From Streptomyces antibioticus (lineage in GTDB: Bacteria > Actinomycetota > Actinomycetes > Streptomycetales > Streptomycetaceae): a DNA stretch of 64,000 nt. The stretch's first letter is position 1. Each line of letters begins with the position of its first letter. Positions 1,639-58,821 of the stretch are shown piece by piece. The translations under genes and the position numbers were made by a program. The notes below the pieces were generated by a model that did not search any database, was not told the origin of the DNA, and saw nothing but the letters and a program-made list of their open reading frames with translations. The stretch lies in assembly GCF_001514065.1 (NCBI RefSeq), contig NZ_KQ948422.1, positions 992,001 through 1,056,000 of the forward strand. Direction: 5' to 3'.

Positions 1639-3051
1639 GGTGTTCCAGCGCGGATCGGCCAGATCCACGTCCGGATAGTTGATGTACGAGCCGTCGGTAC
1701 GTGCGTCGGAGACGGGTACTCCGCCTGTCTCCGCGTACAAAGCCCGGTAGAGCTCCCGGAGTCTGCGGATGTGCCGCTCGTCGTCGGCGGGATCGGTCCA
1801 ATAGGTCCCCAGATAGCTCTTGAGGACCGAATCCCGCTGCGCGACCACGGTCGCGGCGGGGTCCACGGTGTTGACCTTCCGGCCGTAGGAGAACAGCACC
1901 ACCGTGGTGTGACCGTCGTAGTCCGGGTCGGAGAGATACCGAAACAGCAACTCCGTCTCGGCGGCCGCATACGGCCGGCGCAGGTAGGCACCCTTGCTCT
2001 TGGAGCGTGTCAGCTCTCCCCGGTTCTCCACGTCCCGCTGCGTGGCCCGCAGCCACGGCATCTGGGTGTAGGTGATCCGGCACGGGGCCCTCACGCCGCT
2101 GCCTACGGCGGCGACATACTCCTCCAGCCGGTCGCGGGCGCCGGGAGCCGCGCCGTCCAGCTGCGCGCTGAGGGTGATCCGGCCGACCGCGTGCTGGTTG
2201 AGGTACAGCGCGCTGTACAGACTCTCGTACGTCGGGTCGGTGGCGTCCTCCGTGCCGTGCCAGTCGCCGTGGTTGCGGACGAGCGTGGCGAAGTCCCGCT
2301 CGCTCAGCGACTCCCAGGGCCACTCCGCGGCAGCGAACAGGACCGTCTTCGGAGGCCGGGGCAGCACATCCCACGGGGCGTCCGAGGCCGCCTCCGGGGA
2401 GCGGAACCAATAGCGTGTGACCACGCCGAAGTTGCCGCCGCCCGCGCCGGTGTGCGCCCACCACAGATCGTGGTGCGGGTCGGAGGGGGACCGGGAGGCG
2501 ACCACCGTGCGGGCCGCCCCCGCGCGGTCGGCGACGACGACCTCCACGGCCTCCAAGTGGTCGACGATCAGCCCGTGTTGTCGGCACAGCGCGCCGAAGC
2601 CTCCGCCCTGGACATAACCGCCGAGTCCGACCGAGGGGCAGGTGCCACCGGGCAGGGCCACGCCCCAGTTCAGGTACAGGGAGCGGTAGACCGAGCCGAG
2701 CAGCGCGCCCGCCCCGATGCCGAAGGCCGCCCGGCCTTCGTCGTACGTGATGTCGTCGAGCGCGGACAGGTCGATGAGGGTGCGCACCGCCGGATCGTCC
2801 ACCAGTCCCTCCAGACCGTGGCCGCCGCCCCGCACCGCGAGCCGCGCCCCGTCGCGGACGGCGACGGCCACCGCCCGGCGCACCTCTTCGGCGGTACGCG
2901 GCACATGGACCCGGTCGGGCCGGCCGGTGAAGCGCGTGTTGCGTGACCGTGTGGTGAGGGAGAGGTAGCGGGGGTCGCCGGGGGTGATCGCCGCGATGCC
3001 CTGTGCCGGGATGCCGGGCACCGCCACGACCGGGTCGGATATGTCAGTCAT
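1516..3051 (-). CDS. Berberine-bridge-type FAD oxidoreductase, probably bicovalent FAD
   Basis: A 511-residue flavoprotein oxidase of the VAO/BBE fold. The FAD-binding domain spans about 45-215 and the BBE C-terminal segment ends with DPRNVFRHALSV. His78 in RGGGHG and Cys138 in GGTCPSVG occupy the positions that attach FAD at both 8-alpha and C6 in bicovalent members such as AknOx, where the spacing is also 60 residues. Such enzymes oxidise alcohols or sugars or form C-C/C-O bonds in natural-product tailoring. Its ATG overlaps the stop of the upstream MFS gene by 8 nt, so translation is coupled. It is the last gene of a three-gene minus-strand operon. The substrate is unknown; a late oxidation of a cluster product is inferred. 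No secretion signal is visible. Confidence 0.92.
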   Translation of the reverse strand: MTDISDPVVAVPGIPAQGIAAITPGDPRYLSLTTRSRNTRFTGRPDRVHVPRTAEEVRRAVAVAVRDGARLAVRGGGHGLEGLVDDPAVRTLIDLSALDDITYDEGRAAFGIGAGALLGSVYRSLYLNWGVALPGGTCPSVGLGGYVQGGGFGALCRQHGLIVDHLEAVEVVVADRAGAARTVVASRSPSDPHHDLWWAHTGAGGGNFGVVTRYWFRSPEAASDAPWDVLPRPPKTVLFAAAEWPWESLSERDFATLVRNHGDWHGTEDATDPTYESLYSALYLNQHAVGRITLSAQLDGAAPGARDRLEEYVAAVGSGVRAPCRITYTQMPWLRATQRDVENRGELTRSKSKGAYLRRPYAAAETELLFRYLSDPDYDGHTTVVLFSYGRKVNTVDPAATVVAQRDSVLKSYLGTYWTDPADDERHIRRLRELYRALYAETGGVPVSDARTDGSYINYPDVDLADPRWNTSGVPWNRLYFKGNYPRLQRVKAVWDPRNVFRHALSVRASD

Positions 3052-4312
3052 CGATGGCCGCCATCGCCTTTCGTGAGGTCGCTGCGCGGCGCACCGCCGC
3101 GTGGCCGAGGAGCAGGAGCAGGGCGCAGGCGCCCGCGGCAGAGCCGAGCAGGGCGGTGTCCGGCCAGCCGCCGTGCGCCCAGAGGGGACCCGTCAGCGCG
3201 GAGCCCGCCGCGCCGCCGAGGAAGTAGCAGGTCATGTAGACGGTCGTGACGCGGCTGCGCATCTCGTCGCCGACCTGGGCGAAGACCGTCGTCTGGTTGG
3301 AGATGTGCGCGGCCTGGACCGCGAAGTCGATCAGGAGAATCGCCGTGCCGAGCATCAGCAGTGAGGACGACAGGACCGACACCACGGCGAACGACACCGT
3401 GATGAGCGCGAACGCGGCGGCACTGACGGTCCGCTGACGCCCCCGGTCGGCGAACCGGCCCGCCAGGTTGGCGCCGAGGGCGCCACCCGCACCGAGCAGT
3501 CCCATCGCGCCGATCGCGGCGGAGCCGTAGTGGTAGGGCTCCTGGATCAGGCGGAGCGGCACGGCGGTCCACAGCACGGTGAAGGCGGCGAACCCCAGGG
3601 CGCCGTACAGGCAGCGCTCCACGATCACCGGGCGTGCCCGGAGCAGGGAGAACAGCGAGCCGATGAGCGCCGCGTAGCCGCGCACGGTCAGCGGCGTGAC
3701 AGCGGGCTGCGGGGGCAGGATGCGGCGCAGCATCACGCCCACCCCGAGCATCAGGGCCGACGCCCCCCAGAACACGGCCCGCCAGTCGACGAGGTCGGCC
3801 ACCACGCCGGCGAAGGTCCGGCACAGCAGCGCGCCGAGGATGACACCGGTCATCACGGTGCCCACCACCTGCCCGCGCCGCTCCGGCGGTGCCATGCCCG
3901 CGGCCTGCGGCACGATCACCATGGCGGCGACGCTCACCAGGCCGAGCAGGAAGAACAGGACCACGAGGAGCCCGCCGTCGGCCCAGGGGATCACGGCGAG
4001 CACCGCGGCCGCCGTGGTCACCAGAGCGGTGAGCAGCCGTCTGCGGTCGACGGCGTCGCCCAGCGGTACCAGCGCGAACAGGCCGAGGGCGTAACCGAAC
4101 TGGGTGGCCGACACGGACGAGGTGAGCGATCCGGGCGTGCGGTGCAGCGAGGCCGCGAGCTCGGGCAGGATCGGCTGGAGGTAGTACAGGTTGGCCACGC
4201 ACAGACCGCAGGCGGCCGCGAGCAGCAGCACGGTGATCCGGCCGACCGGCGGCCGCGGCGGCGCGGCAGGCCCCGCCAGGCCCGTCGCGCCGCCGTGCGC
4301 CGCCTCGCTCAC
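3044..4312 (-). CDS. MFS transporter (drug:H+ antiporter type)
   Basis: A 422-residue major facilitator protein with about 12 hydrophobic segments. The first begins near residue 25, and the short loop after it reads NLYYLQPILPELA, a feature of small-molecule efflux MFS proteins. The GTG at 4312 is chosen because it overlaps the stop of the upstream SDR (GTGA), and the preceding frame is the SDR's own antisense. It sits between a reductase and a flavin oxidase in one operon, which fits export of the compound they act on. The substrate cannot be read from sequence; import is less likely but possible. Confidence 0.9.
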   Translation of the reverse strand: MSEAAHGGATGLAGPAAPPRPPVGRITVLLLAAACGLCVANLYYLQPILPELAASLHRTPGSLTSSVSATQFGYALGLFALVPLGDAVDRRRLLTALVTTAAAVLAVIPWADGGLLVVLFFLLGLVSVAAMVIVPQAAGMAPPERRGQVVGTVMTGVILGALLCRTFAGVVADLVDWRAVFWGASALMLGVGVMLRRILPPQPAVTPLTVRGYAALIGSLFSLLRARPVIVERCLYGALGFAAFTVLWTAVPLRLIQEPYHYGSAAIGAMGLLGAGGALGANLAGRFADRGRQRTVSAAAFALITVSFAVVSVLSSSLLMLGTAILLIDFAVQAAHISNQTTVFAQVGDEMRSRVTTVYMTCYFLGGAAGSALTGPLWAHGGWPDTALLGSAAGACALLLLLGHAAVRRAATSRKAMAAIDD

Positions 4313-5034
4313 AGCGTGCCGCCGCCGTCGACGTGCAGCACCGCGCCGGTCACGAAGGTGTTCTCCAGCAGGTGCAACACCGTCGCCGCGACGTCGTCGG
4401 GCTGTCCGACGCGGCCCACCGGGGTGCTCTGCGCGGTCTGCTCGAAGAGGCCCGCGCGGGCGTCCTCGGGCAGGAAGGACCACAGCGGGGTGTCGATCAG
4501 ACCGCCGACGACGACATTGACGCGCACCGGGGCGAGCTCCACGGCGAGGGAGCGGCCCATGCCGCCGATGCCCGCGTTGGCGGCGGCGGTCGCGCTCATG
4601 TCGGCGTACGACTTGAAGCCGGCCGCACCGGCGATCAGCACGATCGAACCCTGGCCCGAGATCTTCTTGCCGGCGTGCCGGACGCTCAGCAGCTGGCCGA
4701 CGATCTTGGTGTCGAGGGCGGCGCGCACCGCGTCGAGGGACACGTCGTAGACGGAGCCGACGGCCATGTCGCCGGGGCAGACGACGAGGTGGTCGAGGGA
4801 GTCGATGCCCGCGAAGAAGGCGGCGACGCTCTCCTCGTCGGTCACGTCCACGACACCGGTGGTGATGCCGTCGATCTCCTTGGCGGTCTGCTCCAGCTTG
4901 TCCTTCGAGCGGGAGCCGACGACGACCTGCGCGCCCGCGGCGGCGGCCTGCCGGGCCACCGCCTTGCCGATGCCGGACGAGCCGCCGATCACCACGACAC
5001 GGGCGCCGGAAAGGGAAGAGGGGGAAGTGGACAA
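4309..5034 (-). CDS. SDR-family oxidoreductase lacking the usual Tyr-Lys pair
   Basis: A 241-residue Rossmann protein with the nucleotide motif GGSSGIGKAV near residue 18 and the SDR end DGGGTL. The region that normally carries the catalytic YxxxK reads SYADMSATAAANAG, so the canonical Lys is absent, and the NNAG motif is replaced by VCPG. This matches a divergent SDR branch often found beside XRE/MmyB regulators in Streptomyces. It starts at a TTG with AGGAG 6 nt upstream; no ATG fits. It is the first gene of the SDR-MFS-oxidase operon. It may use another proton relay or act as a non-classical reductase. Confidence 0.88.
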   Translation of the reverse strand: MSTSPSSLSGARVVVIGGSSGIGKAVARQAAAAGAQVVVGSRSKDKLEQTAKEIDGITTGVVDVTDEESVAAFFAGIDSLDHLVVCPGDMAVGSVYDVSLDAVRAALDTKIVGQLLSVRHAGKKISGQGSIVLIAGAAGFKSYADMSATAAANAGIGGMGRSLAVELAPVRVNVVVGGLIDTPLWSFLPEDARAGLFEQTAQSTPVGRVGQPDDVAATVLHLLENTFVTGAVLHVDGGGTL

Positions 5035-5262
5035 GGCTGTCTCCTGGTGACGTGCGAACGGGATGCGTGGCGGCCGACCGGAGATGACCGCCCGGCCTGA
5101 AACGAGGCTGTCAGCCGACGCCAGAGGCAGGGAGACGAAGTTTCATGCTAGTTGGAACACCACCTGGTTAGGCCTTCGCGAGCGGGCCACCATGAGTTGG
5201 TGTCGGGTGCATCGATCTGCCCGGCGCCATCGCGTTGTTCCGATATTCCGAGGCGGTTGTCT
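5035..5262. promoter_or_regulatory. Divergent promoter region between SDR and phosphotriesterase-like genes
   Basis: These 228 nt separate two operons running outward. Around 5146-5172 there is a CTAGTTGG...CCTGGTTAG pair with partial dyad symmetry, and AGTTGG recurs near 5193. Such CTAG/TGGTTAG-type elements are plausible binding sites for the nearby MmyB-like regulator. No strong sigma70 consensus is evident in either direction. The assignment rests on position and partial symmetry. Confidence 0.35.
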
Positions 5263-6303
5263 GTGCGTACGGAAAGTCCCCTCCCGCACGACCCGGTGCC
5301 GACGGTGCGCGGGCCGGTCGCCGCGGCGGACCTGGGTGTCACGCTCGCGCACGAGCATCTGTTCGTGCTGAGTTCCGAATTCCAGTCGAATTTCCCCCAC
5401 TTGTGGGACCGTGAGGCCGGAGTGCGCGAAGCCGTGCGCCAGTTGGAGGAGGCCTACGCGGCCGGGGTGCGGACCCTGGTCGACATGACGGTGCTCGGAC
5501 AGGGCCGCGACATCGACCTGGTGCGTGCCGTCGCCGAGCGCACCGCGGTGAACATCGTGCTCGCCACCGGCGTCTACAGCGTCGACGGCATACCGCTCTT
5601 CGCCCGTTTCCGGGGCCCCGGCGCCGCCGTCGAAGCGGACGACCCGCTGATCGAGCTGCTGCTGCGGGACATCACCACCGGCATCGCGGACAGCGGAGTC
5701 CGGGCGGGCCTGGTGAAGTTCGCCTGCGAGCGCACCCCGCCGGACGCGTCCGCGCACCGGATGGCCGCCGTCGTCGCCGAGGTGCACCGGCACACCGGCG
5801 TACCGGTGGTGGTGCACTGCGACCCGTTCGAGGGCAACGGCGTGCACCTGGTGCGGCTCCTGGAGAAGGAGGGCGTGGCGGCGGGTTCCGTGGTCGTCGC
5901 GCACGCCGGGGACTCGGCCGACCTCAACGGTCTGCGCGCCCTCGCGGACACCGGCTGCGTCCTGGGCTACGACCGCTACGGCATGACGCCCTTCGCCCCC
6001 GACGAGCAGCGCAACGCCACCCTGGCCGCGCTGGTCCGGGCGGGCCACACGGCCCAGTTGCTCGTCTCGCAGGACCATCCCGTGCACATCGACTACCTGA
6101 CGGTCGAGCAGCGGGAACGCATCTACCCGGGCTGGAGCTACGTGCATCTCTTCGAGCGCGTCCTGCCCCTCCTGCTGAAAGAGCCGGGCGTCGACGAGGA
6201 GACCGTGCGCACCCTGCTGGTGGACAACCCCCGGCGGCTGCTCTCGCGGATCGCCGCGCCCCGCCCCTCCGGCGAGCGTTCGGAGGTGCGGGATGCCGCT
6301 TGA
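5263..6303 (+). CDS. Phosphotriesterase-family metal hydrolase (lactonase-like)
   Basis: A 346-residue amidohydrolase-superfamily protein of the phosphotriesterase (PTE) family, a TIM barrel with a binuclear metal site. All six ligands are present: His30 and His32 (AHEHLF), Lys152 (VKFACE, carbamylated in relatives), His185 (VVHCDP), His214 (VAHAGD) and Asp271 (SQDHPV). PTE-like lactonases open acyl-homoserine and gamma/delta lactones; true phosphotriesterases are the minority. The GTG at 5263 has GAGG 9 nt upstream; an in-frame TTG two codons earlier is possible. It is first in a plus-strand operon with a cupin and an SDR, both joined by overlaps. Lactone hydrolysis is inferred, not shown. 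Confidence 0.9.
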   Translation: MRTESPLPHDPVPTVRGPVAAADLGVTLAHEHLFVLSSEFQSNFPHLWDREAGVREAVRQLEEAYAAGVRTLVDMTVLGQGRDIDLVRAVAERTAVNIVLATGVYSVDGIPLFARFRGPGAAVEADDPLIELLLRDITTGIADSGVRAGLVKFACERTPPDASAHRMAAVVAEVHRHTGVPVVVHCDPFEGNGVHLVRLLEKEGVAAGSVVVAHAGDSADLNGLRALADTGCVLGYDRYGMTPFAPDEQRNATLAALVRAGHTAQLLVSQDHPVHIDYLTVEQRERIYPGWSYVHLFERVLPLLLKEPGVDEETVRTLLVDNPRRLLSRIAAPRPSGERSEVRDAA

Positions 6304-6634
6304 GCCCTGGGAGGAGCTGGGGGCCGAGTTGCTCGTCGACGACGAGCACGTCAAGTGCTGGATGGAGACGGTGCCTCCCGGCGAGCAGCGGCCGGCCCAC
6401 ACCCACCGCCACCCCTGGGTGACCGTCGTGCTCTCCGGGGCGCACGGTGAATCCCTGGACGAGAACGGCGAGTTGATCAAAGCGGTGTCGCTGGAGACGG
6501 GGCAGGTCGTGCACAACCGCGGCGAACACCTGCCCATGCGGCACTACGTCCGCAACCTTTCCGACCGGACTCTCGTCATGGTCGCCATCGAACTCCGCAC
6601 GCCCAGCGCGCCGGAGGAAGGACCGAACTCATGA
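6293..6634 (+). CDS. Small cupin-domain protein
   Basis: A 113-residue single-domain cupin. The beta-barrel motifs are visible: HTHRHPW near residues 36-42 supplies two to three metal-binding His, and the second motif falls around HYVRN near residue 83. Its ATG overlaps the end of the hydrolase gene by 11 nt, and its end overlaps the following SDR by an ATGA junction. Cupins of this size act as isomerases, dioxygenases or small-ligand binders; no substrate is evident. The tight coupling suggests it works on the same compound as the hydrolase. Confidence 0.85.
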   Translation: MPLEPWEELGAELLVDDEHVKCWMETVPPGEQRPAHTHRHPWVTVVLSGAHGESLDENGELIKAVSLETGQVVHNRGEHLPMRHYVRNLSDRTLVMVAIELRTPSAPEEGPNS

Positions 6635-7497
6635 GCCGACACGAGCGCTCAGCACGACACCTGCCGCCGAGCGCCCCCGCACTGGTCACCGGGGCCACCT
6701 CCGGTCTCGGCCGGAGCCTCGCGCGGGCCCTCGCCGACCGGGGCTGGACCGTTCTGGTGCACGGCAGGGACGAGAACAGGTGCGCCACCGTCGTCGACGA
6801 GCTGCGCGCGGCGGGCGGCACGGCCCATCCGTACGTCGCGGACCTCGCCTCGCTGGAGGAGGCCGCCGAACTGGGCCGGCGGGTGGCCGCCGAGCACCCC
6901 TCGCTGGGACTGCTCGTCAACAACGCGGGCGTGGGCGCGGGTCGTGACGCGCGCCGCCGTGAGCTGAGCCGGGACGGCTACGAACTGAGGTTCGCCGTCA
7001 ACTACCTGGCGCCCGTGGTCCTCACCCGCGCGCTGCGCTCACCCCTGCGGGCGGCGGGTACGGCACAGGTGCTCAACATCGGTTCGATCGGGCAGAGCCC
7101 CGTCGACCCGGACGACGTCCAGTTCACCCGTCGCTACGACGGCATGGAGGCGTACACCCGCAGCAAGTTCGCGCTGGCCGCCTTCACGTTCACCATCGCG
7201 GAGGAGTACGCCCGCGACGGCATCAGGGTCAACTGCGTGCACCCCGCGAACTACATGGACACCACGATGGTCGTCGAGGCCGGGGTGCGCCCCTGGTCCT
7301 CGGTGGCCGAGGGAACAACCGCCGTGCTGCACGCCCTCGACGAGGGCGCAGAGGGCGCGAGCGGCCAGTACTACAACGAGAGCCGGCGGGCCAAGGCGCA
7401 CCGTCTCGCCTACAGCGCCGACGCCCAGCAGCGGCTGACCTCCCTCACCGACCAGCTCATCGCTCCCGCGGAACGGGCGGGCGGCACGTCCTGGTGA
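6631..7497 (+). CDS. SDR-family oxidoreductase
   Basis: A 288-residue short-chain dehydrogenase/reductase. Residues 18-30 carry the cofactor motif TGATSGLG, LVNNAG follows near residue 93, and the catalytic YTRSK is near residue 172. The C-terminal extension after the substrate loop resembles retinol-dehydrogenase/protochlorophyllide-reductase-like SDRs, which act on hydrophobic alcohols or ketones. It starts at the ATG overlapping the cupin stop and closes the hydrolase-cupin-SDR operon, followed directly by a strong hairpin. The substrate is not known. Confidence 0.92.
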   Translation: MSRHERSARHLPPSAPALVTGATSGLGRSLARALADRGWTVLVHGRDENRCATVVDELRAAGGTAHPYVADLASLEEAAELGRRVAAEHPSLGLLVNNAGVGAGRDARRRELSRDGYELRFAVNYLAPVVLTRALRSPLRAAGTAQVLNIGSIGQSPVDPDDVQFTRRYDGMEAYTRSKFALAAFTFTIAEEYARDGIRVNCVHPANYMDTTMVVEAGVRPWSSVAEGTTAVLHALDEGAEGASGQYYNESRRAKAHRLAYSADAQQRLTSLTDQLIAPAERAGGTSW

Positions 7498-7507
7498 CGG
7501 AGGACGG

Positions 7508-7556
7508 ACACGGGGAAGGGCCCGGTGCGATCGGCGCACCGGGCCCTTCCCCGTGT
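7508..7556. terminator. Perfect 22-bp hairpin, bidirectional terminator
   Basis: Two perfectly complementary 22-nt arms (7508-7529 and 7535-7556) flank a 5-nt loop. It lies exactly between the stop of the plus-strand SDR and the stop of the minus-strand aldo-keto reductase, so it can end both transcripts. No U-tract follows, as is usual in streptomycetes. Confidence 0.9.
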
Positions 7557-7558
7557 TC

Positions 7559-8557
7559 TCAGTCCTCCTGGACCATGGCGAGCAGGTGCTCGGGGAACCG
7601 CTCGCCCGCGAAGGCACCGGGCGGCGCGATCTCGTCGACCTCCCGCAGTACTTCGGGGGTCAAGGTGACGGTTCCGGCGGAGGCGTTCTCGTTCATGTGC
7701 GTGCGCTTCTGAGCCCCCGGGATCGGTACGACCCCCTGCGCGACCAGCCACGCGAGCGCGAACTGTGCCGGTGAGCAGCCGAGTCGGGACGCCAGCTCGC
7801 CGATCCTGGCGACCAGCCGCTGGTTGACGTCGAGGTTGTCCTCGGAGAACCGGGGCAGACCGCGGCGCATGTCGTCCGGGGCCAGCTCGGCCCCGGAGAG
7901 CTCGCCGGACAGCAGCCCGCGGCTGAAGGGGCTGTAGGCGACGAAGCCGATGCCGAGTTCCCTGACGGTGGGCAGCACCGAGCGCTCGGGGTTGCGGCTG
8001 GCGAGGGAGTACTCGGTCTGCACCGCCGTGATGGGGTGTACGGCGTGCGCAGCGCGGATCGTCTTCGATCCGGCCTCGGAGAGTCCCAGGTGCCGGACCT
8101 TCCCGGCGGCCACGAGCCGCGCCATGGCGCCGACCGACTCCTCGACGGGCACCTGGGGGTCGACCCGGTGCAGGTAGTACAGGTCGATGTGGTCGGTGCC
8201 CAGGCGCTTGAGGCTTGCGTCGACGGCCTGGGCGATGTGCCGGGGGCTGCCGTCGACCCGTACGCCGTCGGGCGTCCGGATCAGTCCGCACTTGGTGGCG
8301 AGCGTGACCCGGTCGCGCCGGCCGCCGGCCAGTGCGCGGCCGACGATCTCCTCGCTCAAGCCGGAGCCGTACATGTCCGCCGTGTCGAGGAAGTCCATGC
8401 CCCGGTCCAGGGCTGCGTGGATGGTGCGGACCGACTCGGCTTCGTCGCGGTCGCCGTAGAACTCGGCCATGCCCATGCAGCCGAGGCCGATCGCGGACAC
8501 CTCCAGCCGGCCGCCGAGCAGCACGCGGTCCAGGGTGTGCGGTGTGGTGGTGGTCAT
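7559..8557 (-). CDS. Aldo/keto reductase
   Basis: A 332-residue NADPH-dependent aldo-keto reductase of the YajO/AKR13-like bacterial type. The catalytic tetrad is visible: Asp and Tyr in DTADMYG, Lys in LATKCG, and His in YYLHRVDP. The cofactor-binding end includes [11 protein letters not shown]. The ATG at 8557 follows AGGAGAAGG at the proper distance. It lies 16 nt downstream of the FAD monooxygenase gene on the same strand, so the two form an operon. It reduces aldehydes or ketones; in this context a tailoring step is plausible. Confidence 0.95.
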
Positions 8558-8573
8558 GCCTTCTCCTCGTGAG

Positions 8574-10055
8574 CTACGGGTGGTGGGTCGAGGGGGTGCC
8601 GCCCTGGCGGGCGGGCAGGAGCTGTTCGAGGCGGCGCAGGGCGGTGGGGTCGGCGAGGGCGGCGGCCGCGGCGACGACCCCGTCAGGACGTACGAGCACG
8701 GCTCCGGGGCGTCGTGCGCCCAGGGCACGCGCGGTCCGCGCGTCCAGATGCGCGCAGACGGGTACGTCCCGCTCGGCGAAGGGGGTGCGCCCCGCGAGGA
8801 CGAGGAGCGCGTGCCGTCCCTCGCGCAGCAGGTCGTGGGTGCGGCCGCCGGACGGCAGGGGGATGTCCGGCAGCCGGGTTCCGGGCCCGAGGGTTCCGAG
8901 TGCGGGGCCCTCGGCGGGGTAGCGCAGGTCCATCTGTGCGAAGCGGGACGGCAGGACGCGGTCGAGGACACCGCTGCGCTCGGCGGCGGACGCCGCGAGG
9001 TCGCGGGCCCGCTCGCGCCAGCCGCCCCAGGTCCACAGCCGGGTCTGCCGGTCGGTGTCGGTGACCACGGCTCGCGCGACATGCAGGCGTTCGCGCTCCC
9101 ATGCCCCGAGTGCGGCCTCCGGCAGCCGTCCGCCGATCACGTCGGCGAGGCGCCAGGCCGCCTCGTGCGCGTCCTGGATGCTGGTGTTCAGGCCCTGCCC
9201 GCCGGCCGGGCTGTGCACATGTGCGGCGTCGCCGGCGAGCAGCACCCGCCCTTCGCGGAACCGGTCGGCCATCTTGCGGTGAACCCGGAAGTGGCCCGAG
9301 CCTGCGACGGAGGCCAGCCGCAGCGGGACGGGGCTGCGCTCGGCGGCGATCGCCCGTACGGTCTCCTCGACGTTCTCCTCGGTGGCGCCCTCGGGGGCGC
9401 TGCCGAAGACACGTATGAGGCCACCGGGGAGACCGACGACGACCAGCACGCCCGTGGGCCCCATGAAGTAGTGCGCCTCGGCAGGGGCGAGCGGGGTCTC
9501 CCACTCCCCGTCGACGAGGACGAACGACTGGGGGTAGGTCGGCCCCGTGAAAGCGACACCGAGCTGTTCGCGGACCGCGCTGTACGCGCCGTCGCAGCCG
9601 AGCAGCCGGCCCGTGCGGTGGACGGTCCCCGACAGGTCGGCCGCCACGCTGTCGGGGTCCTGCGCCAGGCCCGTCAGCCGATGGCCGTACTCGACCCGAC
9701 CGCCCGCTTCGTGGAGGGCCTCGAGCAGCAGTCCCTCGGTCTCGTTCTGCGGGAGGGAGAGGGGGGTGCCGAAGCGACTGCCCTTCAGACCGCGGAAGTT
9801 GATACGGGCGACGCGGCGGCCGCGGGTGTAGTAGTTGGCGGCGACGACCGGCAGGGCCGCGTCGCGGATGCGTTCTTCCAGGCCGAGGCGGGCCATCACC
9901 TCCAGCGCGCGCGGCTGGAGGATGATCGCCTTTGCATGGGGGTTCCTTCGGGCCGCGCGATCGACGATTCTGGTGTCGATCCCGCGGCGGAGCAGCTCGG
10001 TGGCCATCATCAGGCCGGTCGGCCCTGCGCCGACGACCAGTGCTTCGCTGTCCAC
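8574..10055 (-). CDS. FAD-dependent aromatic-type monooxygenase (PheA/TfdB family)
   Basis: A flavoprotein hydroxylase of the p-hydroxybenzoate-hydroxylase class with a thioredoxin-like C-terminal domain, about 493 residues. The FAD motif [10 protein letters not shown] is at the N-terminus, the DG motif ([11 protein letters not shown]) is near 155, and the GD motif ([19 protein letters not shown]) is near 280. Family members hydroxylate phenols and polyketide rings using NAD(P)H and oxygen. The start is uncertain: AGGAGG lies 13 nt before the GTG at 10055 but only 1 nt before an in-frame GTG at 10067, so 10055 is preferred. It is the first gene of the pair with the aldo-keto reductase. Confidence 0.93.
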
Positions 10056-10494
10056 GGTGAGCGTCACACCTCCTGCGTTCGGGGGAACGGGCGTGCGGGG
10101 GTAGGGGTGTACGGGTGTGGGGTGAGGGAGAAGAGGGCGCCCCGTCGGCTCATGCGGCCGGTGCACGCCGGATGACCACCATCGTGCACGAAATCAAAGG
10201 GTGGGGCGTGGTGGGTGTGATACCCCTGAGCCCGGCACCAGTCTGATCTGAGTTTCCGGTGGCGGCTCCGGTCGCCGGCGGCCGTCGGCCCCGCCGCCGA
10301 GGTGCCGTCGACAGGGCGCGGGCATCTGTCAACGGGTGCGAACCGGGGCGGTACGGGCGTTTCACCCCCGGGTAACTGGTACCAAGTTCAAGGGTATGAG
10401 CCGCACAGGTGGCAGAACGCTCTGGCTGGCGGCTGTCCGGCGTTCGAAGAATATGAGCCACGAGCCCGGCCACTGCCCAAGGAGCAGCTGCACG
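10056..10494. other. Intergenic region between monooxygenase and AfsA-type gene
   Basis: About 430 nt separate two divergent transcription units. No convincing gene is present: the frames here lack ribosome sites and typical codon bias. The stretch contains the dyad at 10374-10388 and must hold promoters for both units, although no clear -35/-10 pair stands out. Confidence 0.6.
10374..10388. promoter_or_regulatory. GGTACC-centred dyad upstream of the AfsA-type gene
   Basis: The sequence AACT-GGTACC-AAGTT is an inverted repeat with one extra base in the right arm. It lies about 107-121 nt upstream of the AfsA-type start. Its size and AT-rich ends suit a TetR/ArpA-like or other dimeric regulator, the class that normally responds to butyrolactone signals. 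No such receptor gene is adjacent, so the binder is unknown. Confidence 0.35.
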
Positions 10495-11463
10495 ATGCCC
10501 CTCCCCCAGAGCGCCCTCGCCCCGGACGCGGCCACCGCCGCTCCGACCCTCTCCTACCGACGCACGGTCGACCGCGCGGACGTCCACCGCTGGGCGGTCA
10601 GTGAGGTCTTCCTCACCGACTACGCCGACCGGTCCGCGGACACCTACCTCGCCGCGGCCCAACTGCCGCCCGCGCACCACTACTTCGGCGACCACACCGG
10701 CCCGGCCGCCGACCGCCCCGACAGCATGCTCCTGCTGGAGTGCTGCCGGCAGTTCGCCACCTGCATCGCCCACCGCGGCCTCGACGTCGCCAGGGACAGC
10801 GCCTTCCACGTCACCGAATGGACACTCGCCCTCACCGGCGACACCCTGCCGGCACCCCATGACCGGCCCTTCGAGCTGCACATCAAGTCCGCGGTCACCC
10901 GCAGCCAGGTCCGCTCCGGGACGGTGCGGGCCGCACGCTACGTCATGGAGCTCTCGCTCGGTGACGCGTTCCTCGGCCGCTGCGACATCTCCGTCCGCTA
11001 TTCGCCCGCGGAGGAGGCGGAGCTGGTCCGCCGCTACCACCGCAGGTCGGCGCCCCCGCTGTCCGATGCGCTGCCCGCCGTGCCGCCCGGCACACCCGTG
11101 CACCCCGCCGACGTGGCCCGCCGTGATCCCGCCAACGTGGCCCTCGCCGACGCCCGCCATGTGGCCGGCGGAGTGTCCGCCGTGGTGGCGGTGGCGTCGG
11201 GGCACCGTACGCACTTCGATCACCCGCAGGACCACTACACGGCGATGATCCTCATGGAGGCCGCCCGGCAGGCCGCGCTCCTCGCGGCGGGCACCGGCGT
11301 GCGGATCACCGGCTACCGGTCGAGGTTCGCCCGGTTCGCCGAACTCGACGCCCCGGTCCGGGTCGCCGCAGTGCGCCACACCTGCGACGAGGTCGCCGTG
11401 CGCTTCCGGCAGGACGGCATCGTCGTCAGCGAGATAGCCGTCGGCATCGCGGAGGAGCACTGA
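10495..11463 (+). CDS. AfsA-family protein (A-factor-type hotdog repeats)
   Basis: A 322-residue protein with two AfsA hotdog-fold repeats, about 25-165 and 185-320. The second has the typical HPQDHYTAMILMEAARQA stretch and the first has DSMLLLECCRQ. AfsA joins a beta-ketoacyl chain to dihydroxyacetone phosphate, the committed step of gamma-butyrolactone autoregulators; the relative MmfL starts furan signals. AAGGAG 10 nt before the ATG at 10495 decides the start; an earlier ATG at 10453 lacks one. It opens a seven-gene operon with a HAD hydrolase and fatty-acid enzymes. The fold assignment is firm. Signal synthesis is inferred, and a role as a hotdog dehydratase for the same pathway is an alternative. 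Confidence 0.88.
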   Translation: MPLPQSALAPDAATAAPTLSYRRTVDRADVHRWAVSEVFLTDYADRSADTYLAAAQLPPAHHYFGDHTGPAADRPDSMLLLECCRQFATCIAHRGLDVARDSAFHVTEWTLALTGDTLPAPHDRPFELHIKSAVTRSQVRSGTVRAARYVMELSLGDAFLGRCDISVRYSPAEEAELVRRYHRRSAPPLSDALPAVPPGTPVHPADVARRDPANVALADARHVAGGVSAVVAVASGHRTHFDHPQDHYTAMILMEAARQAALLAAGTGVRITGYRSRFARFAELDAPVRVAAVRHTCDEVAVRFRQDGIVVSEIAVGIAEEH

Positions 11464-12164
11464 TGGCGCCCGCGACCGGGCCGGTGCGCGCGGTCTGGAC
11501 CGACTACGGCGGCGTGCTGACCCCGCCGGTGTCCGACACACTGGAGCCCTTCTGCGCCCGGCTCGGGGTGCCCTCGGCCACGCTCCTCGCCGCGATGCGT
11601 CAGGTGGCCCGCGACTGCGGGGCGGGTGACGACGTCATGGCCCCCCTCGACACCCCCCTGCTCACCCAGGAGGCCTGGGAGCGCCGGATGGAGGAGGCTC
11701 TCGCGACGCACAGCGGCCTCCACGTCGACCTCAGCGACTACCCCGCGCGCTGGTTCGCCGACCGCGCGGTCAACCAGCCCTGGCTGGACACCGTGCACCG
11801 GCTGCGCCTACAGGGCGTGTTCATCGGGCTGCTGTCCAACATGCCGCCCGCCTGGGACCGGCACTGGCGGCTGGCGGTGCCGCCCGAGGGACTCTTCGAC
11901 GCGGTGGTGCTGTCGTACGAGTCCGGCTGCCGCAAACCCGAGCAGGAGATCTTCCGCAGGGCCGCCGAGCGGGCCGGGGTGCCCGGCGAGCAGTGCGTGC
12001 TCGTCGACGATCTCGCGGTCAACTGCGCGGGCGCCACCCAAGCCGGCTGGCACGCCGTGCATTTCACCGACGCCGCGGACGCCACGGCAAGGGTCGAGGC
12101 GCTGGTCGCCGCGGGCACGGCAAGCGCCGGCCAGGCCGTCGTCGCCCGGGGAGGCCATCCGTGA
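11463..12164 (+). CDS. HAD-superfamily hydrolase
   Basis: A 233-residue haloacid-dehalogenase-fold protein. Motif I is WTDYGGVL (nucleophile Asp near residue 14), motif II is LLSNMPP, motif III is the Lys in CRKPEQEIF, and motif IV is LVDDLAVN. Members are mostly phosphatases. Its ATG overlaps the AfsA stop by one base, so the two are made together. In furan and butyrolactone signal pathways a phosphatase (MmfP in the methylenomycin-furan route) removes the phosphate left by the AfsA-type reaction, which suits this gene. The second Asp of the DxD motif is replaced by Gly (DYG), as in several epoxide-hydrolase-like HADs, so phosphatase activity is not certain. Confidence 0.88.
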   Translation: MAPATGPVRAVWTDYGGVLTPPVSDTLEPFCARLGVPSATLLAAMRQVARDCGAGDDVMAPLDTPLLTQEAWERRMEEALATHSGLHVDLSDYPARWFADRAVNQPWLDTVHRLRLQGVFIGLLSNMPPAWDRHWRLAVPPEGLFDAVVLSYESGCRKPEQEIFRRAAERAGVPGEQCVLVDDLAVNCAGATQAGWHAVHFTDAADATARVEALVAAGTASAGQAVVARGGHP

Positions 12165-13159
12165 CAGCGGCCGTCATCAGCGGCATCGGCGCCTGGCTGC
12201 CGCCCGACGTGGTCGGCAACGACGATCTCGCCGCCCGCATGGACACCTCCGACGAGTGGATCCGCACCCGCACCGGCATCCGCACCCGGCACTTCGTCTC
12301 CGCCGGCATGCCCACCTCCCTCCTCGCCGCCGAGGCCGGGGCGCGGGCCCTGCTCTCGGCGGGCACCGCTGACGTCGACGCGGTGGTGCTCGCCACCACC
12401 ACACCCGACCGCCCCTGTCCGGCCACCGCCCCCGAGGTGGCCCGCCGCCTCGGCCTCACCGGACGCCCGGCCTTCGACGTCTCCGCCGTCTGCACGGGCT
12501 TCCTCTACGCACTCACCACCGCCGCCGGAATGATCGCGTCCGGGGCCGCCGAACAGGTCCTCGTCATCGGCGCCGAGGCCTTCAGCACCCTCATCGACCC
12601 GCAGGACCGGAGCAGCGGCGTCGTGTTCGGCGACGGCGCGGGCGCCGTGGTGCTGCGCGCCGGTGAGCCCGGTGAGCCCGGCGCCCTCGGCCGGATCGTG
12701 CTCGGCAGCGACGGCTCGCTCGCCGACCTGATCACGGTGCGGGCAGGGGGCTCCGAGCAGCCCCGCCCGCATCCCGGCGCCGATCCGGCCGACCGCTACT
12801 TCTCCATGCGCGGCCGGGAGGTGTTCGGGCACGCGGTGGCCCGGATGACCGAATCGGCACGGGCCGCCCTCGCGCACACCGGATGGCAGCCGGACGACGT
12901 CGACCGGCTGGTCGGCCACCAGGCCAACCTGCGCATCCTGCACGCTGTCGCGGAGCAGTTGGACCTTCCCGTGGAGCGGCTGGTGATCCATCTGGACCGG
13001 GTCGGCAACACGGCGGCGGCCTCCATCCCGCTCGCCCTGGCCCACGCCCACGAGACGGGTGATCTCACCCCTGGGGCCCGTGTCGTCCTGGCCGCCTTCG
13101 GAGGCGGCGCCACCTGGGGAGCCACGGCACTGACCTGGCCCGCGCTGAAGTCCGCGTAA
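12161..13159 (+). CDS. 3-oxoacyl-ACP synthase III (FabH-type)
   Basis: A 332-residue KAS III that starts chain building by condensing an acyl-CoA with malonyl-ACP. The triad is complete: Cys111 (SAVCTGF), His253 (GHQANLR) and Asn283 (VGNTAAAS). The N-terminus DEWIRTRTGIRTRH matches the FabH signature. The GTG at 12161 overlaps the HAD stop (GTGA). Placement inside an operon with its own ACP and KAS II shows it is a dedicated copy and not the housekeeping fabH, which in streptomycetes sits with fabD, acpP and fabF. The primer it chooses will set the chain terminus. Confidence 0.95.
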   Translation: MTAAVISGIGAWLPPDVVGNDDLAARMDTSDEWIRTRTGIRTRHFVSAGMPTSLLAAEAGARALLSAGTADVDAVVLATTTPDRPCPATAPEVARRLGLTGRPAFDVSAVCTGFLYALTTAAGMIASGAAEQVLVIGAEAFSTLIDPQDRSSGVVFGDGAGAVVLRAGEPGEPGALGRIVLGSDGSLADLITVRAGGSEQPRPHPGADPADRYFSMRGREVFGHAVARMTESARAALAHTGWQPDDVDRLVGHQANLRILHAVAEQLDLPVERLVIHLDRVGNTAAASIPLALAHAHETGDLTPGARVVLAAFGGGATWGATALTWPALKSA

Positions 13160-13271
13160 CCGGCGCCACGTCGACACCGGGCGCGCTCAACGCCCCGCTC
13201 GCAGCAGCACCTTCACACCCTCACCCCGGGCCCGTCCGAATCGGTCCCCCCACCCGAAAGGCATCTTCACC

Positions 13272-13523
13272 ATGAGCACCTTCGTGCCCCCTACCTTCGA
13301 GATCCTCTCCCAGGTCCTGGAAGAGAAGTTCGGCGTCCTGCGCGACGACATCAAGCCCGACACCGTTCTGGAGGACATCGAACTGGACTCGCTCGCCCTC
13401 ATCGAGGTCGCGCTGACCCTGCAGAAGCAGCTCGGCGTGGTGATACCCACCGAGGACCTCAACAGCAGCGGCACCGTCTCGGACCTCTTCGACCTGGTGA
13501 ACACGGCGGCGGGGAACGCCTGA
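13272..13523 (+). CDS. Acyl carrier protein
   Basis: An 83-residue carrier protein. Ser40 in the motif ELDSLALIE is the phosphopantetheine attachment site, and four helices are predicted around it. The sequence diverges from the usual housekeeping motif (GxDSLDxVE) at the residues after Ser, as in specialised ACPs. It is preceded by a 112-nt gap, the only sizeable space in the operon, which could hold a ribosome site and possibly a secondary promoter. It tethers the chain for the neighbouring KAS, FabG and FabI enzymes. Confidence 0.95.
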   Translation: MSTFVPPTFEILSQVLEEKFGVLRDDIKPDTVLEDIELDSLALIEVALTLQKQLGVVIPTEDLNSSGTVSDLFDLVNTAAGNA

Positions 13524-14770
13524 TGGCCGAGCACACCGGACGGGACGCACCCGTCGCGATCACGGGCATCGGTCTCGTCACCCCGGCCGGCATCGGGGTG
13601 ACCGCGAACTGGGAGCGGCTGCTGTCGGGCCGCCCCACCGCACAGCGGGACCCGGCGCTCGCCGGACTCCCCGTGGACATCTCCTGCCGGGTTCCCGGCT
13701 TCGACGCCAACGCCCTGCTCGGCCGCTCCACCGCCTGGCGCCTGGACCGGGTCAGCCAACTCGCCCTGGTGGCCGCGCAGGAGGCCCTGTCCGACGCCGG
13801 CCTCGACCCGGACCGGTGGGACGGCACCCGGGTCGGCGTGGTCATGGGCAACGCGCTGGGCGGCACCGCCTCCTACGAGGACGCCCACACCGCGTACCAC
13901 CAGGAGGGCCCCGACCAGGTCTCACCACTCGTGATGGTGAACTGGCCGGTCAACATGATCTCCGGATACCTCGCCATGCACTGCCGGGCGCTCGGCCCGA
14001 ACCTCGTGGTCGCCACGGCCTGCGCCTCCGGCGTCACGGCGATCGGTACCGCACGGCACATGCTGCAGTCCGGCATGTGCGACATCGTGCTCGCCGGTGC
14101 CTCCGAGGCACCGCTCAGCCCGACCCCGATGGCCGCCTACCACCGCATGGGCGCACTGTCCCGGCGCACCGAGGACCCGGCGGGAGCGTCGCGCCCCTTC
14201 GACGCGGACCGCGGCGGCTTCGTGGCCGCGGAAGCGGCGGCCGTGCTGGTCCTGGAGCGCGAGCAGGACGCGACGGCGCGCGGCGGCACGGTCCGTGCGC
14301 TGGTGGCGGGCTTCGGGGCCAGCGCCGACGGGCACCACGCCTCCGCGCCCGACCCGGCGGGTGCGGGCGTCGAACGCGCCCTGCGCTCGGCGCTCGCCGA
14401 CGCGGACGTCGCCCCCGAGACCGTCGACCACGTCAACGCCCATGGCACCTCGACCAAGTTGAACGACCTGATGGAGTCCCAGCTGATCAACCGGGTCCTG
14501 GCCGGCCGTCCGTCGGTGACCTCCACCAAGGGCGTCACGGGGCACGCGCTCGGTGCCGCGGGCGCCATCGAGGTGGCCTACACGGCCCTGACCGTCGAGC
14601 ACGGTCTGGTGCCGCCCACCGCCAACCTCGACAAGCTCGACCCCCAGATCGACCTCGACGTCGTCAGCGGCGCACCACGCGCGCAGCGCGTCGAGACCGC
14701 GACGAGCCATTCCTTCGGGTTCGGCGGGCAGAACGCCGTCCTGGTCCTCCAGAAAGCAGGCACACGATGA
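13523..14770 (+). CDS. 3-oxoacyl-ACP synthase II (FabF-type)
   Basis: A 415-residue elongating ketosynthase with an intact triad: Cys167 (TACASGVT), His307 (VNAHGTS) and His341 (VTGHALGAAG). Its ATG overlaps the ACP stop by one base. It extends the acyl chain on the operon's ACP by two carbons per cycle using malonyl-ACP. There is no chain-length-factor partner beside it, so it is a FabF-like homodimer and not a type II aromatic polyketide synthase pair. Confidence 0.95.
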   Translation: MAEHTGRDAPVAITGIGLVTPAGIGVTANWERLLSGRPTAQRDPALAGLPVDISCRVPGFDANALLGRSTAWRLDRVSQLALVAAQEALSDAGLDPDRWDGTRVGVVMGNALGGTASYEDAHTAYHQEGPDQVSPLVMVNWPVNMISGYLAMHCRALGPNLVVATACASGVTAIGTARHMLQSGMCDIVLAGASEAPLSPTPMAAYHRMGALSRRTEDPAGASRPFDADRGGFVAAEAAAVLVLEREQDATARGGTVRALVAGFGASADGHHASAPDPAGAGVERALRSALADADVAPETVDHVNAHGTSTKLNDLMESQLINRVLAGRPSVTSTKGVTGHALGAAGAIEVAYTALTVEHGLVPPTANLDKLDPQIDLDVVSGAPRAQRVETATSHSFGFGGQNAVLVLQKAGTR

Positions 14771-15477
14771 CCGAAGGCCGGTCCGTCTTCGTCACCGGGG
14801 CCAACCGCGGCATCGGTCTCGCCATCGCCCGCGCCTTCGCCGCGCAGGGCGACCGGGTCGCCGTCGGGCACCGGTCGGGAGAGCCTCCCGAGGGATTCTT
14901 CGGCGTCCGCTGCGACGTCACCGATGCCGGGTCGCTGGAGGCCGCGTACGAGAAGATCGAGGCCGAGCACGGTCCCGTGCAGGTCCTGGTGGCGAACGCC
15001 GGGATCATGCGGGACAAGCTCGCCCTGCAGACCAGCGACGAGGATTTCCTGGAACTCCTCGACACCAATCTGGTGGGCGCCTTCCGGTCGGCGCGCCGCG
15101 CCGTTCCCGGCATGCTGGAAGGCCGATGGGGCCGGCTCGTGTTCATCTCGTCCTTCTCCGGAATGCTCGGCTCTCCGGGACAGGCCAACTACGCGGCCTC
15201 CAAGACGGGCCTCACCGGCCTGGCCCGCTCGCTCGCACGGGAGCTGGGGCGGCGCGGCATCACGGCCAATGTGGTGGCGCCCGGCTTCATCGACACCGAC
15301 ATGGTGGCGGCCGTCAGCCCGAAGCGGCGTGCCGAGTACCTCTCCATGACGGCGCTCGGCCGGCCCGGAACCCCCGAGGAGGTGGCCAACGTGGTGCGCT
15401 TCCTCGCCGGTGCGGACGCGTCGTACATCACCGGCGCGTTCATCCCCGTCAGCGGCGGTCTCGGGATGGGCGTATGA
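14767..15477 (+). CDS. 3-oxoacyl-ACP reductase (FabG-type SDR)
   Basis: A 236-residue SDR with TGANRGIG at residues 10-17, NAG near 78, catalytic Ser in ISSFSG and the pair YAASK near 140-144. It closely follows the FabG pattern and reduces beta-ketoacyl-ACP to the 3-hydroxy form with NADPH. An ATGA overlap joins it to the ketosynthase. In mycobacteria and streptomycetes the MabA/FabG gene is often followed by a FabI/InhA-type reductase, as here. Confidence 0.94.
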   Translation: MTEGRSVFVTGANRGIGLAIARAFAAQGDRVAVGHRSGEPPEGFFGVRCDVTDAGSLEAAYEKIEAEHGPVQVLVANAGIMRDKLALQTSDEDFLELLDTNLVGAFRSARRAVPGMLEGRWGRLVFISSFSGMLGSPGQANYAASKTGLTGLARSLARELGRRGITANVVAPGFIDTDMVAAVSPKRRAEYLSMTALGRPGTPEEVANVVRFLAGADASYITGAFIPVSGGLGMGV

Positions 15478-16313
15478 GCACGGCGGCGCAGGACACCAGG
15501 GCCGAGGACGGCGCCGACCCGTCGGCCGGGGCCGTCCGCCCGGCGGGCGGGCTGCTCGCCGGGAAGCGGCTGCTGATCACCGGGGTGCTCTCCGACACCT
15601 CGATCGCCTTCCACGTGGCGCGGATCGCCCAGCAGGAGGGGGCCAGGGTGGTCCTGACCTCCTTCGGGCGGGCCCTTCCCATCACGGAGGCGATGGCGCA
15701 GCGACTGCCCATGCCCGCGCCCGTGCTCCGTCTCGACGTCACCGACCACGCAGATCTCGACGCACTGCAGGACGCGGTCACCGGCCACCTGGGCGGTCTC
15801 GACGGCATCGTGCACTCGATCGCGTTCGCCCCCCGGTCCGCGCTCGGCGGCGCCTTCCTCGACACCTCGTGGCCGGACGCGGCGACGGCGCTGGAAGTGT
15901 CGGCGTACTCCCTCAAGGCCCTGGTCACCGCGTGCCTCCCGCTGATGGAGGAGGGCTCGTCCGTGGTGGGCCTCGACTTCGACGCGGCGCTGGCCTGGCC
16001 CGGCTACGACTGGATGGGCGTCTCCAAGGCGGCGCTCGAGTCCGTCACCCGCTACCTGGCCCTGTACCTCGGCGAACGCCGCATCCGCGTCAACCTGGTG
16101 GCCGCGGGCATGGTCCGCACCCTGGCCGCGCGCTCGATCCCCGGCGTGGAGCGCATGGAGGAGATCTGGCGAACCCGCCCGCCGCTCGCCTGGGACGTCC
16201 ACGACCCGGAGCCGACGGCGAAGGCCTGCGCGGTGCTCCTGTCCGAATGGCTGCCGGCCACCACCGGCGAGATCCTGCATGTCGACGGAGGGCTGCACGC
16301 GGTCATGACATGA
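15474..16313 (+). CDS. Enoyl-ACP reductase (FabI/InhA-type)
   Basis: A 279-residue enoyl-ACP reductase. After an unusual Ala/Pro-rich leader of about 30 residues comes the FabI cofactor motif KRLLITGVLSDTSIA. The catalytic pair appears as Y-x6-K (YDWMGVSK), the spacing that separates FabI/InhA from ordinary SDRs, and HVDGGLHA ends the protein. It saturates the enoyl-ACP made during elongation. It overlaps the FabG gene (ATGA) and is the last gene before a strong terminator. No dehydratase is present in the operon to supply its substrate. Confidence 0.93.
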   Translation: MSTAAQDTRAEDGADPSAGAVRPAGGLLAGKRLLITGVLSDTSIAFHVARIAQQEGARVVLTSFGRALPITEAMAQRLPMPAPVLRLDVTDHADLDALQDAVTGHLGGLDGIVHSIAFAPRSALGGAFLDTSWPDAATALEVSAYSLKALVTACLPLMEEGSSVVGLDFDAALAWPGYDWMGVSKAALESVTRYLALYLGERRIRVNLVAAGMVRTLAARSIPGVERMEEIWRTRPPLAWDVHDPEPTAKACAVLLSEWLPATTGEILHVDGGLHAVMT

Positions 16314-16325
16314 GGCACCGGCCCC

Positions 16326-16371
16326 ACGGCGGAGGCGGTACGACACACCTGTGTCGTACCGCCTCCGCCGT
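16326..16371 (+). terminator. Perfect 21-bp hairpin after the fatty-acid operon
   Basis: Perfectly matched 21-nt arms (16326-16346 and 16351-16371) enclose a 4-nt loop, 13 nt after the FabI-type stop codon. This is a strong intrinsic terminator-like structure and marks the right end of the AfsA/fatty-acid operon. Confidence 0.92.
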
Positions 16372-16420
16372 GCATGCCCACCATCCGTCACGCCAACCGG
16401 CCCATATCGCCCCGCTATTA

Positions 16421-17902: not shown

Positions 17903-17909
17903 CTCGCGG

Positions 17910-58740: not shown

Positions 58741-58821
58741 TGACGGGCCGTATATGTCCTCGTAGAGGTGTGCGGTTTGGCCGCCTGCTGTGGCGCAGTG
58801 CGGTGCGAGGAGGTGGACGGG

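Follow-up and report, generated by a model that had tools for sequence, protein, structure and literature searches.

An AfsA-family gene joined to fatty-acid-type chain-building genes in a conserved Streptomyces cassette that may make a lipid butenolide or furan

We analyzed a 64,000-nucleotide stretch of Streptomyces antibioticus DNA (the window, to whose positions all plain coordinates refer; C1:992001-1056000 of the 10.15-Mb genome G000), with a focus on a plus-strand operon at 10495-16313 that encodes, in order, an AfsA-family protein, a HAD hydrolase, a ketosynthase III (KASIII), an acyl carrier protein (ACP), a ketosynthase II (KASII), a FabG-type reductase and a FabI/InhA-type reductase. 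C-numbers denote contigs of this genome, L-numbers fetched loci and G-numbers genomes. The operon makes up the right-hand portion of a cassette of 16 genes at about 652-16313, with nine further genes on its left. We consider it fairly probable that this cassette makes an exported, oxidized lipid butenolide or furan, with AfsA releasing the chain from a stand-alone assembly line of the fatty-acid type.

All seven genes named in the initial annotation were present at their positions, each with a Pfam match above the curated cut-off. The genes overlap by 1 or 4 nt at five of the six junctions (in order, -1, -4, +112, -1, -4 and -4 nt), the sole exception being the 112-nt gap between KASIII and ACP, and an AAGGAG motif precedes the AfsA start codon (ATG 10495). 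The tight linkage and the perfect terminal hairpin reported earlier were therefore confirmed, but the stem measured 23 rather than 21 bp, its arms (16325-16347 and 16350-16372, plus strand) enclosing a 2-nt loop and starting 11 nt past the FabI stop, with no T-run. Within 400 nt past FabI, a perfect stem of at least 12 bp was found in three of four relatives (L010, L011 and L012), while the fourth (L013) had no stem of 9 bp or longer in that interval.

The AfsA protein (10495..11463) matched Pfam AfsA (PF03756) in two stretches and is predicted to be a butenolide synthase with a double hotdog fold (model pLDDT 84.1); its conserved residues are common to MmfL, and a PDB sequence search gave no match at E≤0.1. 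The adjoining gene (11463..12164) encodes a predicted HAD-IA phosphatase (Pfam Hydrolase and HAD-IA models) that retains D14, K158, D182 and D183, with motif I reading DxG. KASIII (12161..13159) is of the FabH type and belongs with methylenomycin MmyC in one group, the ACP (13272..13523; Pfam PP-binding) carries the DSL motif, and KASII (13523..14770) is a FabF-type enzyme with C-H-H residues, as judged from Pfam, hidden Markov models (HMMs) and alignment to a solved enzyme. The FabG-type ketoreductase (14767..15477) was assigned by profile matches, and the FabI/InhA-type enoyl reductase (15474..16313), which has a Y...K motif and marks the right edge of the cassette, scored 394.6 bits against NCBIfam PRK07889 (cut-off, 299). 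The KASIII His-Asn, KASII Cys-His-His and FabI Tyr-Lys residues, which we take to be the catalytic motifs of these families, aligned with those of solved enzymes; the aligned 2x3e chain has Ala at the position of the operon KASIII Cys.

All 16 genes recurred with order and orientation kept in five other streptomycete genomes (L010, L011, L012, L013 and G267, the last as L046 plus L224); S. flaveus JCM 3035 is an example of a carrier that can be cultivated. The initial annotation had made its reading depend on AfsA being conserved beside these genes, and the recurrence of the same order in other streptomycetes bears this out; it also rules out a chance string of fatty acid synthase (FAS) genes. 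In S. hainanensis (L012), identity was down to 61-85% with gene order unchanged, and in Streptomyces sp. GKU 895 (L009) the operon and a flavin monooxygenase gene lie at a contig end. In that locus (L009 1-12759), KASIII and a downstream solute-binding protein (SBP) each match in two frames, reflecting sequencing errors or frameshifts. Among 392 same-genus genomes including the source (five AfsA candidates scored per genome, as in the class search below, so that counts are lower bounds), AfsA identity above 60% was found only in G000, G267 and G120; among 384 genomes (six FabI candidates scored per genome, likewise giving lower bounds), FabI identity of 75% or more was confined to the same three, and FabI proteins of 61-66% occurred in at least 16 further genomes. 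L012, L047 and apparently G120 represent one genome (S. hainanensis), as do L014 and L187 (Nocardiopsis trehalosi). The genes flanking the cassette vary between genomes and its boundaries are sharp, as expected of a cassette moving as a unit, and it has probably spread horizontally. Sugar ABC transporter genes (16606-19726) lie directly past the hairpin and also follow FabI in L009; they were not found after FabI in the fetched stretches of L010-L013 or L046 and thus fall outside the conserved cassette.

To place this arrangement within the AfsA family, we compared the surroundings of 39 relatives (non-own AfsA matches at E≤1e-40 in the 392 genomes) with those of 39 further AfsA loci taken from 24 genomes drawn evenly. 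Within 8 kb of AfsA, 34 of 39 relatives but 5 of 39 others had a ketosynthase or KASIII (Fisher, 2.5e-11); for a ketosynthase plus ACP the counts were 25/39 versus 1/39 (3.4e-9), and for a HAD gene 29/39 versus 5/39 (5.3e-8). These counts used a GC-based gene caller and HMMs seeded from the source cassette and relatives, which may favor the latter, and each set includes contigs that stop short of 8 kb. Two cassette orthologs (L046 and L047) are among the relatives, loci in both sets (L056, L070, L072 and L073) were counted as relatives only, and L145 was left out because it and L146 led to one AfsA, which leaves one G011 AfsA outside the count. Several gene orders occurred among the relatives; KASIII-type, ACP, ketosynthase and FabG genes without FabI were present in 15 of 39, and the full set including FabI appeared only in orthologs of the source cassette. 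In a tree of 93 AfsA proteins (midpoint root, quick search without bootstrap, identical proteins entered once), the cassette AfsA fell in a group of 52 rows (SH-aLRT, 96), 46 of them ketosynthase-linked, while the other side of the tree held 36 rows, 31 without a ketosynthase within 8 kb, including MmfL and the source genome's own AfsA proteins of C5 and C12. The tree lacks the named spt, NP10 FasA, SabA and GdsF PBS sequences; the salinipostin (spt) AfsA homolog reportedly offers a further AfsA precedent. Label changes on the tree numbered 12 for 'none' (30.5 when shuffled) and 11 for 'KAS+ACP' (29.2 when shuffled), so the linkage is clustered on the tree and not confined to one branch. Beyond the genus, a 394-genome class sample contained at least 10 matching genomes, 6 of those 10 from other genera, and ketosynthases stood beside AfsA in five of these six stretches (exception, L193). 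Thus, AfsA-ketosynthase coupling is a general theme.

We then asked how the chain-building enzymes compare with those at other AfsA loci and with the genome's own copies, the rankings spanning the fetched loci and own paralogs. The operon KASIII was 58% identical over 325 aa to MmyC, the KASIII of the methylenomycin cluster (L174), and 57-62% identical to its counterparts at 12 other AfsA loci, compared with 38-42% for the genome's other KASIIIs; most remaining relatives, NP10-like ones included, gave 34-42%, and one gave 54%. KASII shared 59-66% identity with KASII of 20 other AfsA loci, 35-43% with own copies and 27-44% with ketosynthases at the rest of the AfsA loci. These values rule out a recent duplication of the genome's own ketosynthases and indicate that the operon KASIII and KASII are specialized and distinct from them by sequence. 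FabG and FabI differ in this respect, their closest counterparts in the genome being two neighboring genes, a FabG-FabI pair on C11 (L105; 64% and 55%, respectively). The earlier idea of a private chain builder holds, the two ketosynthases not being near own copies. Pfam detected neither a malonyl transferase nor a dehydratase among the 16 genes, and 'complete synthase' is accordingly too strong a description. KASIII-ACP-KASII trios related to that of the operon were also observed in stretches that, as far as read, contained no AfsA; the trio in L221 adjoins a type I polyketide synthase (PKS) and that in L176 VlmB-like genes. The trio thus looks like a portable natural-product part, perhaps a starter-unit module.

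The same genome carries a second cluster (L087, C8:288000-307900, 19.9 kb) with homologs of 10 of the 16 cassette genes, namely the MmyB-like regulator, berberine-bridge-type oxidase (BBE), major facilitator superfamily (MFS) exporter, phosphotriesterase-like (PTE) hydrolase, cupin, one short-chain dehydrogenase/reductase (SDRb), aldo/keto reductase (AKR; 68%), FAD monooxygenase (FMO), AfsA (30%) and HAD (34%). KASIII, ACP, KASII and FabI were not found in this stretch, and no KASII or KASIII match at E≤1e-20 occurred anywhere on contig C8. L087 additionally carries an epimerase/NmrA-type reductase gene. An intermediate form, L068, has KASII, ACP and FabG near AfsA, with no KASIII or FabI found there. 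Together, L087 and L068 indicate that the tailoring genes occur both with and without a chain builder, and because L087 keeps ten genes without ketosynthases, the chain builder looks like a plug-in. One genome with both a chain-builder cassette and a ketosynthase-free cluster makes the question directly testable.

In the pathway that we propose, KASIII would start the chain by placing a beta-ketoacyl group on the cassette ACP. FabG and FabI would reduce it with the help of a dehydratase from primary metabolism, which would also provide malonyl loading, and KASII would extend it. The final beta-ketoacyl-ACP would be left unreduced and released by AfsA through condensation with dihydroxyacetone phosphate (DHAP), giving a phosphorylated butenolide from which the HAD enzyme would strip the phosphate. 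Finishing would fall to the FAD oxidases (FMO and BBE), the reductases (AKR and SDRs), the cupin and the PTE-like hydrolase, the last perhaps opening the lactone; the MFS protein would export the product, and the MmyB-like regulator would control the cassette. The genes, their order and conservation, the distinct KASIII and KASII, the AfsA group and the retained catalytic motifs are read from sequence, whereas we infer the order of steps, chain length, tailoring and product. The AfsA reaction is drawn by analogy from the literature on relatives, in particular the gladiostatin/gladiofungin PBS, an AfsA domain that acts as a chain-release enzyme and whose condensation with DHAP was demonstrated in vitro (PMC7756379), and from the conserved residues common to MmfL. 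Unlike the cassette AfsA, that Burkholderia domain is part of a fusion with a modular trans-AT PKS (PMC7756379). Several points weigh against the proposal. DHAP is assumed to be the substrate for the cassette's AfsA group, the second Asp is absent from HAD motif I, the malonyl transferase and dehydratase genes are missing from the cassette, and FabG and FabI could act on the ring rather than the chain. Moreover, the operon KASIII shares only 39-42% identity with that of the NP10-like relatives, which means that the chain builders of the relatives were not inherited as a single module, and the similar cluster of Streptomyces sp. NP10 affects free fatty acids, with no butyrolactone found there (PMC6018390).

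That cluster, the NP10 C12-2 'fas' cluster, comprises fasA (AfsA), two KASIIIs, ACP, KASII, two reductases, HAD-IB, MFS and a FAD enzyme (PMC6018390), and thus shares with the cassette the combination of AfsA, KASIII, ACP, KASII, FabG, HAD, MFS and FAD enzyme. By gene table, NP10 has a second KASIII-type gene and HAD-IB, whereas the cassette has one KASIII among its 16 genes and HAD-IA, and the InhA-type FabI, PTE, cupin, BBE and MmyB-like regulator of the cassette are not among fasA-K (PMC6018390). Its authors stated in 2018 that similar clusters were unreported to their knowledge (PMC6018390). Six of our loci (L060, L061, L066, L069, L070 and L189) look like the NP10 type by gene order and protein size, as does L051 except for its HAD-IA. 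With NP10 (PMC6018390), methylenomycin (PMC12593393) and sphydrofuran (PMC11195616) as precedents, the novelty that the initial annotation saw in dedicated chain building beside AfsA or AvrD proteins is not supported. We found no report of the exact 16-gene cassette in the open-licence literature; given NP10, the cassette is a new variant of that kind rather than unprecedented, its novelty lying in FabI (fully reducing), HAD-IA, PTE, cupin, BBE and the MmyB-like regulator.

The NP10 work also raises the possibility, unlikely in our estimate, that the cassette builds free fatty acids or acyl-glycerols, AfsA merely freeing chains as DHAP esters. Disruption of fasB lowered the free fatty acid content (ng/mg dry weight) from 10021 to 0.12, and the gene table has the same AfsA, KASIII, ACP, KASII and FabG core (PMC6018390). 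No ester or butyrolactone was found, and the role of AfsA was called enigmatic (PMC6018390). However, fasB complementation recovered no more than about 0.4%, and production in a heterologous host did not reach high levels (PMC6018390). The cassette is also rich in tailoring genes, and ten of its 16 genes have homologs in the L087 cluster, where no ketosynthase was found.

The methylenomycin cluster on a Streptomyces anthocyanicus plasmid (L174) is ordered AvrD, KASIII, ACP, HAD-IB, MFS, ScbR, ScbA, acyl-CoA dehydrogenase and HAD. It resembles the cassette in its dedicated KASIII (58%) and ACP, MmyB-like regulator (37%), MFS and HAD, the cassette ACP matching MmyA at only 28% over 57 aa. In methylenomycin biosynthesis, KASIII and ACP supply a butenolide synthase with malonyl transferase borrowed, and that synthase is the AvrD-family MmyD, which uses a pentulose and an acetoacetyl chain and works alongside separate mmf signal genes (PMC12593393). 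MmyD matches the AvrD Pfam model, whereas none of the 16 cassette genes does at E≤0.001, and the L174 annotation has no KASII, FabG or FabI. The sphydrofuran GI-9 cluster likewise has KASIII, ACP, ketosynthase, FMO, AKRs, helix-turn-helix (HTH) and MFS genes around a butenolide synthase, which is again of the AvrD and not the AfsA family (PMC11195616).

The signal synthases of the A-factor, ScbA and MmfL type share Pfam AfsA with the cassette protein, and the initial annotation had proposed a signal operon, whose hormone, be it a gamma-butyrolactone, a butenolide or a furan, would bear an unusual acyl chain. In its favor are the AfsA family itself, the adjoining phosphatase and A-factor-type chemistry, together with S. 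griseus, where an mltR/mmyB homolog adjoins afsA and is A-factor-induced (PMC3406030). We searched the genome with the methylenomycin receptor MmfR (E≤1e-8; at least 17 matches, with 150 of 176 candidates scored). No receptor-like gene was detected near the cassette AfsA, the closest C1 match lying about 677 kb away, whereas the own AfsA genes of C5 (at about 340 kb) and of C12 have matches within about 0.4-3.5 kb. The cassette is not alone in lacking a close match, since that nearest the own C8 AfsA is about 78 kb away. MmfL lies on the opposite side of the AfsA tree, and the presence of an exporter, FMO and BBE points to an end product. The HAD enzyme had been likened to MmfP, yet it matches HAD-IA models and PF00702/PF13242, whereas MmfP matches PF12710 best in Pfam, and blastp found no match between the two at E≤0.01. 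Against the ScbA/BarX equivalog (cut-off, 200 bits), the cassette AfsA scored 173.9 and MmfL 280.9; L061 (219.3) and own L087 (204.1) pass while L012, L055, L058 and L178 (186.6-190.9) fail, so this cut-off separates poorly and is weak evidence. In the plasmid loci L174 and L178, the ketosynthase cluster adjoins a separate ScbA/ScbR pair, and in methylenomycin production the hormone comes from mmf genes and the antibiotic from mmy genes (PMC12593393). In L178 (NZ_CP107949.1 plasmid), AfsA is flanked by ketosynthase genes and HAD-IA near that ScbR-ScbA pair, with MaoC dehydratase and FabG nearby. We therefore regard a signal as improbable, slightly more so than a fatty acid product, and an exported end product as more likely.

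Least credible, and in our view very improbable, is that KASIII, KASII, FabG and FabI are resistant spare FAS targets protecting the producer from its own product while AfsA draws on primary metabolism: the adjacent FabG-FabI pair on C11 and the module-free L087 would fit, but the dedicated ACP, ketosynthases that are not near copies of the genome's own, ketosynthase plus ACP in 25/39 relatives and FabI within 8 kb only in cassette orthologs all argue otherwise.

Extending the chain-release reading to the family, we tentatively suggest, at somewhat less than even confidence, that a large and mostly uncharacterized part of the Streptomyces AfsA family consists of stand-alone release enzymes of discrete FAS-like lines making lipid butenolides or furans rather than signals, that the cassette is the fully reducing form (FabI), and that an older AfsA-HAD-FMO-PTE-cupin cassette gained chain builders or lost them. 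The ketosynthase-linked AfsA matches H1 and H3 (which corresponds to L078 in record length and position) are annotated 'ScbA/BarX family gamma-butyrolactone biosynthesis protein', and H5 only as AfsA-related. If the ketosynthase-linked group makes end products, such signal annotations are mistaken and lipid-butenolide clusters have gone unnoticed as a set. Methylenomycin lactone intermediates outdo the final antibiotics against Gram-positive bacteria (PMC12593393).

The left part of the cassette begins with the MmyB-like regulator (652..1638, +; Xre HTH plus MLTR ligand-binding domain by Pfam HTH_31 and MLTR_LBD; 37% to MmyB), whose start was inferred from the HTH match inside the open reading frame 529-1638. 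It was found in L010-L013, L224 and L225 (tblastn identity, 93% in L010 and 85% in L224), and a PDB sequence search gave no match at E≤0.001. The convergent BBE oxidase gene (1516..3051, -; Pfam FAD_binding_4 and BBE) overlaps its 3' end by 123 nt (1516-1638) and is followed by the MFS exporter (3044..4312, -; Pfam MFS_1) and an SDR oxidoreductase (SDRa; 4309..5034, -; Pfam), all three syntenic in relatives. The PTE-like metallohydrolase (5197..6303, +; Pfam PTE; start uncertain, 5152 to 5296) is a possible lactonase whose best PDB match is 4if2, followed by aryldialkylphosphatases. Next come the small cupin (6293..6634, +; Pfam Cupin_2) and SDRb (6631..7497, +; Pfam adh_short), both syntenic, then AKR (7559..8557, -; Pfam Aldo_ket_red; 68% to the gene in the paralogous cluster L087) and the aromatic-hydroxylase-type FMO (8574..10070, -; Pfam FAD_binding_3 and Rng_hyd_C). 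The divergent FMO/AfsA promoter region (10220..10400) contains inverted half-sites, ATACCC at 10220 and GGGTAT at 10392. In a five-locus alignment, the half-sites ATACCCCTGAG and TTCAAGGGTATGAG were largely retained, being partly altered in L012, and they are a possible operator of the MmyB-like regulator.

Farther along the window, positions 58798-62544 encode a 1248-aa nSTAND1 NTPase with WD40 repeats.

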